Shown: piece by piece, positions 37,054-42,755 of the stretch
Layout: each line of letters opens with the position of its first letter
Position numbering within the stretch: position 1 is the first letter of the stretch
From: Parapedobacter defluvii
GTDB lineage: Bacteria; Bacteroidota; Bacteroidia; Sphingobacteriales; Sphingobacteriaceae
Direction of reading: 5' to 3'
NCBI RefSeq assembly: GCF_014642075.1
Contig: NZ_BMIK01000018.1
Location: 1 to 64,000, forward strand
DNA: 64,000 nt
Made by a program: the position numbers and the translations under genes
The notes under the pieces: model-generated
Told to the model about the DNA's origin: nothing
Seen by the model: the letters and a program-made list of their open reading frames with translations, nothing else
The model's database searches: none

Positions 37054-37157
37054 AAGTGCGTTTTTGCATTATATATTTTGCTTGATAACAAGAAAATTAA
37101 TTTGAGAAATTGGAAAATGTTAACTACCTTTGTTAACACAACAAAATAATTGTGTTT

Positions 37158-37610
37158 ATGATTCCTGATTTTACGCATGGCTCGGGACTAATATGGCCAG
37201 TGTTACCGCCGGGCATTTGGGATGCGAGCATTCTTGATATTGAAAGAAGATTTGCAATAAACGAAAGAAGAATATATTTATTCGATGGACTAAAGGCCGC
37301 ACTCCAAAATTTGTTTGAGGCTGGAAGTCCCCAAGTTTTCTTAGACGGGAGTTATGTGACGGAAAAACCTCTGCCTAATGATTATGAGCTGTGTTGGGAT
37401 ACCGATAACGTAGACCCGAATATTTTGGATCCTGTGTTTTTGACATTCGAGCACGGAAGAAAAGAGCAGAAGGAAAAATATTTTGGCGAATTTTTTCCAA
37501 CGTTAATGATAGAGGGTAATTCGGGGAAGCCCTTTCTTGATTTTTTTCAGATAGATAAGATTTCTGGTATGAGGAAAGGAATAGTAAGGTTGCAAAATTA
37601 CTTAAAATAA
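37158..37610 (+). CDS. Nucleotidyltransferase-like protein (DUF6932 type)
   Basis: 150 residues. The core motif VFLDGSYVTEKPLPNDYELC (about residues 57-76) has the GS and spaced acidic residues of the NTase fold (G-S-x(n)-D-x-E/D), as in DUF6932-type proteins. The rest is LDPVFLTFEHGRKEQKEKYF and FLDFFQIDKISGMRKGIVRL. An alternative GTG start lies two codons upstream. It is the first gene of an AT-rich cargo block, with the XRE-ImmA gene 6 bases downstream, resembling a toxin/antitoxin-like or abortive-infection pair. Whether it transfers nucleotides is not proven. Confidence 0.6.
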   Translation: MIPDFTHGSGLIWPVLPPGIWDASILDIERRFAINERRIYLFDGLKAALQNLFEAGSPQVFLDGSYVTEKPLPNDYELCWDTDNVDPNILDPVFLTFEHGRKEQKEKYFGEFFPTLMIEGNSGKPFLDFFQIDKISGMRKGIVRLQNYLK

Positions 37611-37616
37611 GGGGGA

Positions 37617-38891
37617 ATGATGATTACCAACGACAGACAATATAAGATTTCCAAGTCTCAAATTGAAAATTTTCAGACTGCGCTTGATGCATTTTCCGTT
37701 GCATCTGAAAATGCGGAAAATACCCATCCTAAAATACTTGAAGCGTATAAATCAGCAATCGAGTCACAACTCAATGATTTATTGGAAGAAGTAAGGGAAT
37801 ACGAAGACTTAAAGGCTGGACGTGTGGTTATGGCCGAAATCCATGACCTTTCAGGCTTGCCGTTAGCATTAATAAAATCGAGGATTGCTAATGGCCTTAC
37901 CCAAGCTGAACTTGCGGAGAAACTTGGAGTTAAAATGCAGCAGATTCAAAAGTACGAGGCTGAACGATATAGCTCGGCAAGCCTAAAGACACTGTTGAAG
38001 ATAGCTTCGGCTTTAGGAGTAAAAGTGAGTGCGGATGTACAACTGACGGATATGCCCCAACGGGAGAAATTTGACATAAAGAATTATCCGTTCAAACAGA
38101 TGTATCAACGTAATTGGTTTAGTGGTTTTGTCGGTTCTCTGAATGATGCGACGATACATGCCCAAACTTTGCTGGAGAATCTCTACAAGTCAGCAGATAT
38201 GGAATTTACCCCCCACGCTTTAACAAAGAAATCGGTTAGGACGGACGGAAAATTTAATGATTTTGCGTTAGATGCCTGGTATGCGAGAGTTATATCTAAG
38301 GCTAAAACTCAAAAAGTTTCCAGAAAATATGCAAGTGATATAATAAATGAAGATTGGTTGAGTAAACTCAGAGAATTGAGCAAAGAAGCTAATGGGCCAT
38401 TATTGGCCGCAGAATATTTAAGAGAAAGCGGAATAAGATTTATCATAGAACAATCTCTTGAAGGAACGTATCTCGATGGAGCGGCAATGACCTTTGAAAA
38501 TGATTCGCCGATTATAGCTATGACACTCAGATATGATCGGCTTGATAATTTTTGGTTTGTACTTTTCCACGAAATTGCCCATATATACCTCCATTTAAAT
38601 GATACGGTCAATGTAATCTTTGACGATCTCGATGCCAATGTCGATGGAATAGAAAAAGAGGCTGATGATTATGCGTTGAATGCCCTAATATCAAATGACT
38701 TATGGAAGAAATCGTTAATCCGATTTAACCCTACGGAGAAAGGAATCATTAATTTGGCTAATTCCTTGAATATTAATCCTGCGCTAATCGCTGGTCGGTT
38801 AAGAAAAGAAAGAAATTCATTTTTTATATTCAATGAATTAATAGGACAAGGAAAAGTGAGAAAGTGCTTTATAAACGCGATAAATTATTGA
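37617..38891 (+). CDS. XRE HTH plus ImmA/IrrE metallopeptidase protein
   Basis: 424 residues, a HigA/ImmA-like fusion. An N-terminal helical region (YKSAIESQLNDLLEEVREYE) leads to an XRE domain at about 85-135 (SRIANGLTQAELAEKLGVKM then QQIQKYEAERYSSASLKTLL). A linker follows, then the ImmA/IrrE metalloprotease core at about residue 310 with the zinc motif FHEIAHIYLHL and a downstream acidic residue in EKEADDYALNALIS. Such proteins cleave or sense phage or toxin regulators and are typical of mobile elements and defence loci. It sits between the NTase-like gene and the Beta-family gene, with 4-6-base gaps. Confidence 0.85.
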   Translation: MMITNDRQYKISKSQIENFQTALDAFSVASENAENTHPKILEAYKSAIESQLNDLLEEVREYEDLKAGRVVMAEIHDLSGLPLALIKSRIANGLTQAELAEKLGVKMQQIQKYEAERYSSASLKTLLKIASALGVKVSADVQLTDMPQREKFDIKNYPFKQMYQRNWFSGFVGSLNDATIHAQTLLENLYKSADMEFTPHALTKKSVRTDGKFNDFALDAWYARVISKAKTQKVSRKYASDIINEDWLSKLRELSKEANGPLLAAEYLRESGIRFIIEQSLEGTYLDGAAMTFENDSPIIAMTLRYDRLDNFWFVLFHEIAHIYLHLNDTVNVIFDDLDANVDGIEKEADDYALNALISNDLWKKSLIRFNPTEKGIINLANSLNINPALIAGRLRKERNSFFIFNELIGQGKVRKCFINAINY

Positions 38892-38894
38892 ATT

Positions 38895-40010
38895 ATGAAC
38901 CCTGAATTCTATTTACCAATATTAAAATCAAAAGAGGGGGAATTCACAGCCCTTTTTAAATTGGATAAATTTACCAAAAAGCATATATGTCCTCTTTTCG
39001 AAATTAGTAATTTGGAATACGACAATGAGAGCAAGAAAAATCCCAAAACCCTCGAAGAACACCTTCATGGTTTTTGCCTTAAAAAATTCATAAAAAAATG
39101 GTGTTCAAGTAACTCGTTCGTTGATACTTATCAGTTGAGAGGGCAATTCGTTAATGGAATAACCCCGTTGGAGTATATATATGAACAGATAGCAAAGAAA
39201 CTTCTTATACCGTTGTTTCCGATGCCTATTGCTCATATTAATGACAATGTCCAAACTATGAATGGTCTAATCAGTGTTATTAAGAAGCACGGAATTAAAG
39301 AAATTGGCATAAGGCTTAAAATTGAAGATGCAATGGATATTACATTGGCTAATAAGCTGGATGGGTTATTGAAAAGGTTAGAGTTAAATTGCGAGAGTTG
39401 CCACCTCATTTTTGATTTGGCAAGCTCTGATTCTTCCCAACCTACCGATTTTTCCCAACCTATGGATTTTTCAGCAGGGATTATTGCATTACTTGAAACC
39501 TTTCCCAACTTCCATGCTTGGAAATCCTTCACAATATGTGGGGGAGCTTTCCCTCGTTCTGATTTATTGAAGAAAGGTTTGAATATTGTAACAAGGTTAG
39601 ATTGGGAATTATATAGACACATTGAAGAAGGGCTGCGCCAGACTGACTATGCTCGCAAAATAAATTTTGGTGATTATAGCATCGTTACGCCAGGGCATTT
39701 TGAATTTGATCCGAGGAAGATGAAACGGAGTGCAAACATAAGATATACGACGGGGGGGAATTGGCTTATTATAAAGGGTTCCGCTTTGAGCAAGCCAGAC
39801 GATTTTAAACAGTATATTTCACAGGCTGGAGAAATTTGCACTTCAGAATACTATCTCGGAGAATCATATTCTGAAGGAGATTTATATATCAGAAAATGCT
39901 ACTTAGGCGATGCTAAACCTGGGAATCCGACTGTATGGAACTGGGTTGGCAATAACCATCATTTCACAAAGGTAGTTGCCGATTTATTCTCCACCCCTGT
40001 CTATTCTTGA
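38895..40010 (+). CDS. Beta-protein family member (sce7725-like)
   Basis: 371 residues. The N-terminus FYLPILKSKEGEFTALFKLD with CPLFEIS is characteristic of the Beta protein family, whose members are often next to sce7726-type proteins. Central strands include IKEIGIRLKIEDAMDITLAN and the C-terminus ICTSEYYLGESYSEGD. A repeated segment SSQPTDFSQPMDFS lies about residue 180. It has no signal peptide. It is the last plus-strand gene of the cassette and overlaps by 47 bases the 3' end of the minus-strand sce7726-like gene. Biochemical function is not known to me; the context suggests defence. Confidence 0.65.
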   Translation: MNPEFYLPILKSKEGEFTALFKLDKFTKKHICPLFEISNLEYDNESKKNPKTLEEHLHGFCLKKFIKKWCSSNSFVDTYQLRGQFVNGITPLEYIYEQIAKKLLIPLFPMPIAHINDNVQTMNGLISVIKKHGIKEIGIRLKIEDAMDITLANKLDGLLKRLELNCESCHLIFDLASSDSSQPTDFSQPMDFSAGIIALLETFPNFHAWKSFTICGGAFPRSDLLKKGLNIVTRLDWELYRHIEEGLRQTDYARKINFGDYSIVTPGHFEFDPRKMKRSANIRYTTGGNWLIIKGSALSKPDDFKQYISQAGEICTSEYYLGESYSEGDLYIRKCYLGDAKPGNPTVWNWVGNNHHFTKVVADLFSTPVYS

Positions 40011-40548
40011 GGATACCAAGCGTAATGTTGCCAAGGGTGTTAATATCGCATTTTTCAGCAAGCAGGGTATACAATTTATCCCTTGTCCAACTTTGTTTCG
40101 GTTCACAATCAAAATAGTCTTCCAGTATTTTAATTACTTCCTCTTTCCATAATAATTGAGCCATGCTGTAAGCATTTTTACGATCGTTTACTTCCGATTT
40201 ACGTAAACAGTTGAAGTTATATAATCCCTTGTCTTCCTGTTCTATCAAATAAATTCCCCACCACTTCGGAACCTTTTCCAAGATTTTATTCAGATGCCGC
40301 TTTCCTGTTATAATATATGCCTTGTCAAAAATTTCACTGTAAACACCTACTTGGGGAATCAGACGGCTTAAATTATCTCGATCTGTTTTGATTTCATAGC
40401 CAATAAGGCTTCCGTTGAGAACTGCAATATCCGCGCGAATTGCACCATTTTTTAGTCCAAGTTCATCTATCACAAAAGTATCCTGATCAAGATGAGCCGT
40501 TTTTAAAATGGTGGTATGAAATGCCGTTCTAATAATGCTATCCCTCAT
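39964..40548 (-). CDS. sce7726-like protein with PD-(D/E)XK-type motif
   Basis: 194 residues. The block RADIAVLNGSLIGYEIKTDR (about residues 37-56) has the order Asp-x(n)-Glu-x-Lys expected for a restriction-endonuclease-like fold, preceded by a helical segment RTAFHTTILKTAHLDQDTF. The C-terminal half is helical (QLLWKEEVIKILEDYF). It is convergent with, and 47 bases overlapping, the Beta-family gene; in other genomes the two families are also neighbours. It may be the nuclease effector of a defence module. Catalysis is inferred from the motif only. Confidence 0.65.
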   Translation of the reverse strand: MRDSIIRTAFHTTILKTAHLDQDTFVIDELGLKNGAIRADIAVLNGSLIGYEIKTDRDNLSRLIPQVGVYSEIFDKAYIITGKRHLNKILEKVPKWWGIYLIEQEDKGLYNFNCLRKSEVNDRKNAYSMAQLLWKEEVIKILEDYFDCEPKQSWTRDKLYTLLAEKCDINTLGNITLGILKNRQGWRINRQLPL

Positions 40549-40721
40549 AATAAGCGAAAGTAATACAAATATACATTATCGCAAACAAAATAATGGGTAA
40601 AAAAGCTAACTATATTAGTTTTTCTTATATTCAACATATACATAGCGACAATTTTATTTATGGTATCATAAATACTATCAAGAAAGTATTTCGCATTTTT
40701 ACCGGACAAAAACTTGAAATA

Positions 40722-41654
40722 ATGGCTGAGCAGACTAACAAAAGTCTTTTGGAATTGATAAAAAGTGTATCTATACCTGAAATAATAAAAAATAATGCAA
40801 TTATTGCTTTGGCCAACGGTCTTGGCAAGATAATTTCCAGTGGTGCAGAAATTCCAGTTGCTTATTTTGAACGTATATCGCAAAACATTAAGGCTAAGGG
40901 GAATGCTGAAGTCAAAATGATTAATGCTGCTGCCGAATCTGCTACTAAGTTATTTCATACGGATAATGACTTAGCTAATGTTGCTTTAGAGCATTTTGGC
41001 CGTAATATAATAAAGCAATATTTAAACCGTCAGCAAGTGGCCCAAAAGACAATCGAGAATCTACAAACCATTAATCCTGATAGCGATTCTACCCGAACAA
41101 TAGATAACGATTGGTTAACCCAATTCTGGAATTTATCGGAAACAAAAACACAGGAAGATGTTCAAGAAATATTATCAAAGATTCTTACAAAGGAAATTGT
41201 AAACCCGGGAAGTATAAGCCCTTATACTCTTCAACTTCTTTCTATTTTAACATCAGATATAGGCAATTCATTTCAGCGACTCTGCAATTTATCAATTGAC
41301 GATGGCAGAAGTTGCTACATTATTCATCCAAACGTTTTTCCATTTCAGAATATCGGGCCATTGGAAGATTATGAAATTTCCTATGATGACTTATTCGATT
41401 TAGATGGCTTGCGACTTATTAGATCTGCTGAAGCATTACGCGTGAATTATGGACAGCTCCCTGATTCAATGGTCGAGATTATAAATTACGCTGGAATTGA
41501 AGCCAAAATAAACTTCTCGGAAAAACAAGTATGCTTAATTCAACTTACAAAAAGTGGTCGAGAACTTCGTAATCTACTGAGTTTAACTGAAAACAAGAAA
41601 TATACGTTGCGTTTACAAGAGCTATTAAAGGACGCATTCGAAGTTGTCGGTTAA
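40722..41654 (+). CDS. DUF2806 family protein
   Basis: 310 residues from the ATG at 40722 (MAEQTNKSLLELIKSV); an in-frame ATG at 40593 adds 43 residues reading into the divergent promoter region. Family features: PEIIKNNAIIALANGLGKII, a basic helical stretch, the characteristic NDWLTQFWNLSETKTQEDVQ, EIVNPGSISPYTLQLLSIL, and a C-terminal LTKSGRELRNLLSL. The family occurs in mobile and defence contexts and has no proven function. It is divergent from the sce7726-like gene and convergent with a protease gene, so it may act with either. Confidence 0.7.
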   Translation: MAEQTNKSLLELIKSVSIPEIIKNNAIIALANGLGKIISSGAEIPVAYFERISQNIKAKGNAEVKMINAAAESATKLFHTDNDLANVALEHFGRNIIKQYLNRQQVAQKTIENLQTINPDSDSTRTIDNDWLTQFWNLSETKTQEDVQEILSKILTKEIVNPGSISPYTLQLLSILTSDIGNSFQRLCNLSIDDGRSCYIIHPNVFPFQNIGPLEDYEISYDDLFDLDGLRLIRSAEALRVNYGQLPDSMVEIINYAGIEAKINFSEKQVCLIQLTKSGRELRNLLSLTENKKYTLRLQELLKDAFEVVG

Positions 41655-41702: not shown

Positions 41703-42755
41703 CTAAAGTAAATTTAAAGCAGATATAGGAATAACACCGTGATTTTCTGTCAACGGAGCATTTTCCATTTTATCTGCACCTGTAACCGCAACACCTATGA
41801 CCTTATTGCCTTCACCAATGATTGGTCCACCACTATTTCCTCCAATAAGAGGAGTATTTACAAGCATACGTCGGATTGAAGATGCCATCCTAAAACCTAC
41901 TATCAGGCCTGGTGAAAAGATTCCAGTGTCGCCATAGTTATGATTTGGAAAGCCCGCCACAGCCATGTGGTCGTTTAACTTAACCTTGTCGCTATCTCCG
42001 ATTTGTAGACCGTCTTCCAAGGCAAGACCATCCGCTTGAATTATTGCTAAGTCAATAACTTCATTTTTTTTAAAGATTTTGACTGGATATTTATTTTTTA
42101 AATCATCAGCTTTAAAAACATAACTATCATCAACGACGGTATGTTCACAAGTAACTAAACCGTAGTTTGCTAAATGAAAACAAGTGCCTTGTATCCCACT
42201 CATAGATTCAATGACATAGATATTATTTAGAATTTTTTGTATGTCATAGTTAGGCGGTGTAGGGATTGCTGCCAATACCCTACTTTGATTTCTACGCCAC
42301 ATTTCTGGATGCACATATCTTCGTAAATAATCTAATATTACATCCTGTATATGATGGAAACTTAGGCTATTGTTAGTAAAACGACTTACATAGGTGAACT
42401 TGTCAAACAGGTACGAATCGCTTCCAAGTGCTTCTACAATTTGCGGAATATCAGGATAGGCGATTTTATCGACCAATTGCCTTGCTTTTGTGACCATATC
42501 ATCGTCGTCCACCTTGCCTACATTAACCGTTCCGCTTGCGTGGTAAGACTCATGTATTATCGCTAAATAACATGATTCGTCGAAGTATACTTGGGCATAC
42601 CACAATTTCTGTACAAATGAGTGTAGGCTAATCCATTCAGATGGTCCTCTCCTAATCAAGCCATCCATGAACTGCATAATTCTAACGGCGGTCATTGCAT
42701 TAACCGGATGCTTACTAAACTCCAAGTCCGGTATATATTCCTCGTAACGCATCAT
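41703..42755 (-). CDS. Trypsin-like serine protease with novel N-terminal domain
   Basis: 350 residues. The C-terminal 170 residues form a chymotrypsin/trypsin-like fold with an apparent catalytic triad: His in GLVTCEHTVVDD, Asp in VIDLAIIQADG and Ser in LIGGNSGGPIIGEG. The N-terminal 180 residues are helical and unlike common protease partners (VRIMQFMDGLIRRGPSEWIS). There is no signal peptide, so it works in the cytoplasm, unlike most trypsin-like proteases. Cytoplasmic proteases of this type are effectors in several anti-phage systems; the link here is inferred from its place in the mobile cargo. Confidence 0.75.
   Translation of the reverse strand: MMRYEEYIPDLEFSKHPVNAMTAVRIMQFMDGLIRRGPSEWISLHSFVQKLWYAQVYFDESCYLAIIHESYHASGTVNVGKVDDDDMVTKARQLVDKIAYPDIPQIVEALGSDSYLFDKFTYVSRFTNNSLSFHHIQDVILDYLRRYVHPEMWRRNQSRVLAAIPTPPNYDIQKILNNIYVIESMSGIQGTCFHLANYGLVTCEHTVVDDSYVFKADDLKNKYPVKIFKKNEVIDLAIIQADGLALEDGLQIGDSDKVKLNDHMAVAGFPNHNYGDTGIFSPGLIVGFRMASSIRRMLVNTPLIGGNSGGPIIGEGNKVIGVAVTGADKMENAPLTENHGVIPISALNLL

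Follow-up and report, generated by a model that had tools for sequence, protein, structure and literature searches.

A cassette of four genes, here called A, B, C, and D, lies in a 64,000-nucleotide stretch of Parapedobacter defluvii DNA (contig NZ_BMIK01000018.1, positions 1 to 64,000), hereafter the window (table 1). Judged by gene neighborhood, the four genes form one conserved genetic unit. Since B and C resemble components of the anti-phage system PD-lambda-2, D resembles cII of the P4 gop-beta-cII system, and A stands in the place of HigB, the cassette is by homology a variant joining these two systems and a member of neither. We propose, with a probability of about 0.62, that it constitutes a single anti-phage system of toxin-antitoxin-like design, which represses itself and moves horizontally, its anti-phage activity and the toxin-antitoxin logic of A and B being suggested by analogy with the homologues. 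A palindrome preceding A, which a preliminary description of this DNA did not mention, is a new observation of this analysis.

Table 1. Coordinates of the cassette and of the genes beside it, counted from the first nucleotide of the window.
Feature	Position	Strand	Description
Putative operator	37135-37156		Palindrome AACACAA-N8-TTGTGTT, one base upstream of the A start codon
Gene A ORF	37158-37610	+	DUF6932, nucleotidyltransferase-like motif; PF22014 6.7e-29
Gene B ORF	37617-38891	+	XRE helix-turn-helix fused to putative ImmA/IrrE-type zinc peptidase
Gene C ORF	38895-40010	+	Beta family; PF14350 2.9e-59
Gene D ORF	39964-40548	-	sce7726 / P4 cII homologue; NF033832 2.1e-49
Convergent C/D 3' overlap	39964-40010		47 bases
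DUF2806 gene	40593-41654	+	DUF2806/TIGR03899 protein, beside D
Trypsin-like gene	41703-42755	-	Trypsin_2 7.4e-14; N-terminal half without assignment

We scanned a collection of one genome per species with an alignment of B and analyzed the best 80 of at least 375 confirmed places, calling the contents of these loci (numbered with the prefix L) by profiles built for this analysis. They comprise 42 loci with all four genes (ABCD), 3 ABC, 2 AB, 21 HigB-B, 1 HigB-B-C-D, 10 B-C, and 1 with B alone. All four genes are present in 42 of the 47 A-bearing loci; among the three ABC loci, L050 stops at a contig edge and L086 holds only a partial C. The ABCD loci span 10 phyla, 27 of them belonging to Pseudomonadota. 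Clustering of their open reading frames (ORFs) of at least 100 amino acids recovered B, C, and D in all 42. A was recovered in 39, since in some loci an overlapping ORF displaced that of A. The next most common flanking family, recombinase-like by sequence, was present in four. The four-gene arrangement is far above chance. An independent anchor survey covered 395 Bacteroidota genomes (prefix G), the window's own included. Beta is found in 7 and sce7726 in 26 of them, and Beta is adjacent to and convergent with sce7726 in 7/7, being in pieces in G781. B adjoins the pair in three of these seven (the window's genome, G693, and G781), together with A in the first two. Co-occurrence of the homologues, which the preliminary description had proposed to compare with background, is far above it in both surveys. 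The A-B half and the C-D half are each found without the other, as two independent cassettes that merely happen to be neighbors would be. This explanation is very improbable: both halves lie together in the great majority of A-bearing loci from diverse phyla, and C starts no more than 32 bases past B in 42/42 ABCD loci.

Copies of the cassette on plasmids of Agrobacterium, Sinorhizobium, and Rhizobium have the identical gene order and the identical 47-base overlap, with B only 39–40% identical to that of the window. In a rapidly built tree of 92 B proteins, the nearest relatives of the window's B are from Bacteroidota. The ABCD state crosses phyla on this tree, with Nitrospirota and Acidobacteriota rows nested in largely proteobacterial groups, as expected from transfer as a unit. 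All 23 HigB-paired rows fall inside one group of 25 (support 100). We rejected the idea of treating the coupling of A and D as independent evolutionary events, A changing only three times on the tree, which is too few. A search with the B sequence found no relatives in viral contigs.

According to the parts of the published account drawn on here, PD-lambda-2 encodes a HigB-like A, an Xre-peptidase B, and a P4-antitoxin-related C; in Escherichia coli, its B alone is toxic and is rescued by A, C is required against lambda-vir, and the system acts by abortive infection (Vassallo et al. 2022, PMC9519451). The cassette repeats this order, a small gene coming first; its B belongs to the PD-Lambda-2_B family of PADLOC (7e-88) and its C to PD-Lambda-2_C (1.2e-40). 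It differs from PD-lambda-2 in its first gene, a DUF6932 gene with a nucleotidyltransferase (NTase) motif instead of HigB, in its convergent, nuclease-like fourth gene, and in its palindrome, ACAA-N8-TTGT, the one before many HigB genes being of the TTCCC/GGGAA type (by eye). A had no match to PD-Lambda-2_A up to an E value of 1; HigB proteins score 8.1e-43 (L114) and 6.7e-40 (L097) with this model. The P4 gop-beta-cII system, in the sections of its description considered here, gives protection from lambda and P1, and its Gop is toxic when beta is absent (Rousset et al. 2022, PMC9122126). Beta and cII homologues are convergent both in the P4 record and in the cassette. In place of gop, the cassette has A and B, and its C and D overlap, whereas the P4 genes lie 27 bases apart. 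No gop match was found among six window proteins scanned with PADLOC, P4 Gop itself scoring 4.8e-70. The label "uncharacterised" given in the preliminary description does not hold: B and C are homologous to components 2 and 3 of PD-lambda-2, and C and D to beta and cII of P4, both systems having been tested according to the portions of the two papers used. In the open-licence literature searched, we found no description of the four-gene combination; the searches led to the PD-lambda-2 and gop-beta-cII papers, an Asgard survey, a Pseudomonas syringae toxin-antitoxin survey, and several surveys of genomes and phages. Among PADLOC candidate systems, A matches the component A model of PDC-M63 (8.9e-10), as do 30/30 aligned A proteins. 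Component A is the only part of this candidate seen in the cassette, none of its other components matching B, C, or D.

The extended palindrome upstream of A is the sole match in the 5.8-Mb genome of the window, and a reversed-pattern control gave 0. We analyzed 51 loci, 45 of them from genomes and 5 from plasmids, with the window as the last; they are not mutually independent. They were drawn from 53 loci with A, leaving out L072, whose contig begins within A, and L082, whose start codon was misassigned, although the same palindrome precedes its MIP start. The core ACAA-N8-TTGT, always 16 bases long, is found 3–5 bases upstream of the A start codon in 43/51 loci. The chance level was a mean of 0.135 in shuffled upstream sequences and 0.14 at random places (200 rounds each). 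Four more loci carry the palindrome with one mismatch, and in L051 a copy lies about 100 bases further upstream. It is wholly missing in three, L037, L102, and L089, which are exactly those lacking the QQ[IV]QRYE helix in B; L037 and L102 belong to the same lineage, so that these losses represent two events. Moreover, the outer base of the operator (C or T) agrees with the B residue preceding QQ (M/E/V or A/P/Q) in 47/47. A TTGAC motif at −37 to −35, present in 17/51 loci, predicts by its position a transcript start at or beside the A start codon. Because the palindrome is missing exactly where the B helix has changed, B is probably the autorepressor of A-B-C and the palindrome its putative binding site. 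Of the steps in the mechanism that we propose, repression by B has the strongest support. Several HigB-type loci (e.g., L097–L099, L101, L112, and L116) show the different palindrome, TTCCC...GGGAA, before the HigB gene, seen by eye and uncounted. This suggests that the HigB branch may have a clade-specific operator of its own.

The B protein combines an HTH_3 domain (2.9e-13) with an intact HEIAH motif at residues 318–322, and H318, E319, H322, and E346 are invariant in 9 aligned proteins. An alternative start at 37620 (conserved MITNDRQ) is available. B also weakly matches the PADLOC models capH (2.9e-5), capP (2.8e-5), and RmrA. Like CapH/CapP and RmrA, it would associate an XRE repressor with an ImmA/IrrE peptidase, here fused; it differs from them in being embedded in a four-gene unit with NTase-like and nuclease-like proteins. 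DdrO/IrrE is a repressor-protease pair of the same XRE repressor and ImmA/IrrE peptidase type. In MNT/HEPN toxin-antitoxin modules, a small nucleotidyltransferase-like protein is encoded beside the toxin. Similarly, A is NTase-like and is encoded beside the likely toxin B, the partner here being a helix-turn-helix peptidase with no Pfam match to a HEPN domain.

The NTase motif reported in A by the preliminary description is well conserved. It consists of G64 S65, D75-x-E77, and D128 (GS-x9-D-x-[DE] followed by a third acid), with G64, S65, and D75 in 30/30 aligned proteins, D/E77 in 30/30, and D/E128 in 27/30. When 39 DUF6932 stretches and 21 nucleotidyltransferase stretches from related genomes were compared as profiles cut around the motif, hhalign gave a probability of 50% and a score of 27, where 20 column shuffles reached no more than 13.6; the uncut profiles did not match. 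A search of solved structures with the A sequence gave no hits, and we found no mention of DUF6932 in the open-licence literature searched. Gop was considered as a relative of A and rejected (hhalign probability 0.3%). DUF6932 is more widespread than the cassette: it is found in 31/395 Bacteroidota genomes (24 above cut-off), with a B-profile match beside 6 of the 30 loci examined. Distant DUF6932 genes in L127, L129–L131, L133, L136, L142, L145, and L147 lie upstream of a gene for a protein of about 300–335 or about 75 amino acids. Several of these neighbor proteins begin with a helical-looking stretch that by eye resembles the B N-terminus.

The assignment of C to the Beta family, already made in the preliminary description, is borne out by Pfam (table 1), the direct PADLOC beta match being weak (1.2e-4). 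The AlphaFold2 model of C (predicted local distance difference test [pLDDT] 92, predicted template modeling [pTM] score 0.92) is a predicted (beta-alpha)8 triosephosphate isomerase (TIM) barrel. Foldseek ranks TIM barrels highest, namely class II aldolase (2.0e-4) and triosephosphate isomerase (7.7e-4), with template modeling scores of about 0.4 and a large root-mean-square deviation, so that the fold class is clear without any close relative. The residues E16, D174, R234, D260, H355, and H356 are invariant, and the location of several of them at strand ends in the model hints at an active site. In L037, from an Acinetobacter pittii plasmid, the beta gene of an A-B-C-D cassette is split: an IS30 transposase gene and an NDM-1 gene come after its first part, and the remainder lies with D about 10 kb further on. 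Judged by match positions, beta is split on two further Acinetobacter plasmids too.

D was described as sce7726-like with a D...EIK motif, and both parts of this description are confirmed: NF033832 scores 167.9 bits against a cut-off of 70, and E29, D40, E52-x-K54, Q66, and Y70 are invariant in 28/28 aligned proteins. E29, D40, E52, and K54 are also found in 36/36 rows of a wider alignment that includes P4 cII, and D matches the PADLOC cll (P4 cII) model at 3.5e-30. No Pfam family matched D. Its model (pLDDT 94.6) has an alpha-beta-beta-beta-alpha-beta core with E29, D40, and E52-x-K54 on strands 1–3. Foldseek ranked SfsA best (E = 0.019), followed among unrelated hits by Can2, McrC, and XPF, none with E < 0.001; these four proteins presumably share the PD-(D/E)XK fold. 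Sequence searches of solved structures with C and D gave chance-level hits only. The suggested comparison with PD-(D/E)XK nucleases is supported by motif and strand order, the fold match itself being statistically weak, and D appears to be of the PD-(D/E)XK type and nuclease-like.

C and D overlap by 26–137 bases in 42 of 43 B-anchored pairs. All these lengths are 2 mod 3, the pattern to be expected of lineages in which the two frames have always stayed together. The commonest lengths are 44 bases (13 pairs) and 47 bases (11 pairs). In L074, beta is split over two ORFs, the second of which overlaps D by 38. In three phage pairs, the overlaps measure 41, 89, and 107 bases, all likewise 2 mod 3 (by hand).

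We propose the following mechanism. B would bind the palindrome covering the promoter and keep A-B-C expression low. An infection cue may act through the peptidase half of B, so that repression is relieved or B is freed. A, in the HigB position, would restrain B or a B-made signal, as the HigB-like A does in PD-lambda-2. C, the TIM barrel, may be a partner needed for defense, as its homologues suggest, and D, outside operator control, would cut DNA with or downstream of C, as its motifs and homologues suggest. Abortive infection would probably result. Least certain in this scheme is the sequence of events during infection.

Several observations weigh against this proposal. Of the XRE and HEIAH zinc-peptidase fusion claimed in the preliminary description, the helix-turn-helix and the intact HEIAH motif stand, but the Peptidase_M78 match of B (19.6 bits) is below the cut-off of 22. 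The agreement between outer operator base and helix residue needs only one switch of each on the tree; the notion of an operator-helix covariation made of many events was abandoned, a single switch plus the two separate losses being all that is seen. No operator copy precedes D in any of 43 loci. The phase of the C/D overlap is kept in 5/7 Bacteroidota pairs, two others overlapping by 49 and 21 bases (by hand), and a universal phase was discarded on this account. As the best-scoring part of at least 375 places, the 80 loci lean toward close relatives of B. In the literature searched, we found no report of this variant being assayed against phages or for toxicity. Of the earlier claim that the four genes act as one system, the genetic unit is supported by gene neighborhood, and the defense role is a prediction from homologues. 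Among 10 nearest flank proteins drawn at even steps from 38, PADLOC matched 1/8, weakly (STAND, L059), and Pfam found defense- or toxin-antitoxin-like domains in 2/10 (NACHT/WD40, L059; AbiEi, L063), so that this small sample, which has no control set, gives no clear signal of defense-island enrichment. Among neighbors picked by hand, a Drt6-like reverse transcriptase (1.7e-155) is encoded ahead of the ABCD cassette in L033, and the B-C locus L039 adjoins a gene for a Gabija GajB-like helicase (4e-228).

C-D pairs with neither A nor a fused B close by are found in P4, Rac-SA53, and Gordonia phage Powerball, and the same holds, within 1.5 kb, for four of the seven Bacteroidota genomes with Beta; A-B might consequently be a regulator only. 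On this alternative, A-B would be a sensor-regulator made of a repressor and its activating peptidase, as in CapH/CapP, A would tune B by modification, and C-D alone would be the effector. The conserved operator upstream of A, the weak matches of B to capH and capP, and L160 and L161, in which separate helix-turn-helix and M78-peptidase genes (a split B) precede Beta and sce7726, would all suit it. We nevertheless regard it as unlikely, since the B of PD-lambda-2 is itself toxic and rescued by A, as stated in the part of the paper drawn on here (PMC9519451), and since among the best 80 loci B and C occur without A or D in 10, and HigB and B without C or D in 21. We retain the toxin-antitoxin-like defense system as the preferred reading. 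The Rac-SA53 pair was detected by DNA match in 93/5,426 E. coli genomes, the match covering the pair alone.

L114 encodes a canonical PD-lambda-2 (A 8.1e-43, B 5.9e-147, C 8.8e-38) together with a convergent cII-like D (2.8e-14). With the split-B loci and the lone C-D pairs, it supports reading C-D as a shared core whose front-end modules are interchangeable. Tentatively, and at somewhat less than even odds, PD-lambda-2 and P4 gop-beta-cII might be two faces of one wider class, built on a TIM-barrel/nuclease C-D pair with an ancient in-phase overlap that takes on one or another sensor or toxin module: Gop, HigB with XRE-ImmA, DUF6932 with XRE-ImmA, or split HTH with ImmA. In the present cassette, an NTase would replace the ribonuclease-type toxin at the same position, giving an NTase/repressor-protease toxin-antitoxin pair without described counterpart in the literature searched. 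The cassette links two separately reported anti-phage systems and places sce7726 within them. A suggests that the gene in the toxin position is exchangeable for one encoding a nucleotidyltransferase-like protein. PD-lambda-2 as published has three genes, and L114 points to a possible fourth member, encoding a nuclease-like protein. The cassette also offers a concrete candidate control site and specificity residue.

In the window, the cassette block has a G+C content of 36–37%, against 49% in the integrase region and 51% in the mob genes. On one side lies a tyrosine integrase gene adjoining tRNA-Pro, and on the other the genes of a MobA-type relaxase and a YWFCY/TraG coupling ATPase. The AT-rich block that the preliminary description placed between the integrase module and the mob genes is thereby borne out, and its four ORFs, their strands, and the exact C/D overlap are all confirmed. 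The gaps, said to be 4–6 bases, measure 6 bases between A and B (9 with the alternative B start) and 3 between B and C, a slight departure from the stated range. Such carriers, an integrase/relaxase element here and plasmids in Rhizobiaceae and Acinetobacter, would suit a module that stabilizes mobile elements (addiction) and plays no direct part against phages, as would the toxin-antitoxin-like layout and the autoregulation. We consider this improbable: in the sections of the published tests drawn on here, homologous systems protected against phage (PMC9519451; PMC9122126), and a dedicated nuclease and a TIM barrel would seem to exceed the needs of an addiction pair.

The four genes do not fill the cargo block, contrary to what had been stated, as the DUF2806 and trypsin-like genes also lie inside it. 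Both were rejected as members of the cassette, since a BLAST search of the regions flanking the 42 ABCD loci matched neither. The DUF2806 protein has a weak ZorA-like match (0.0027), and the C-terminal half of the trypsin-like protein matches the retron-associated RT-Protease_XI model (5.7e-33).

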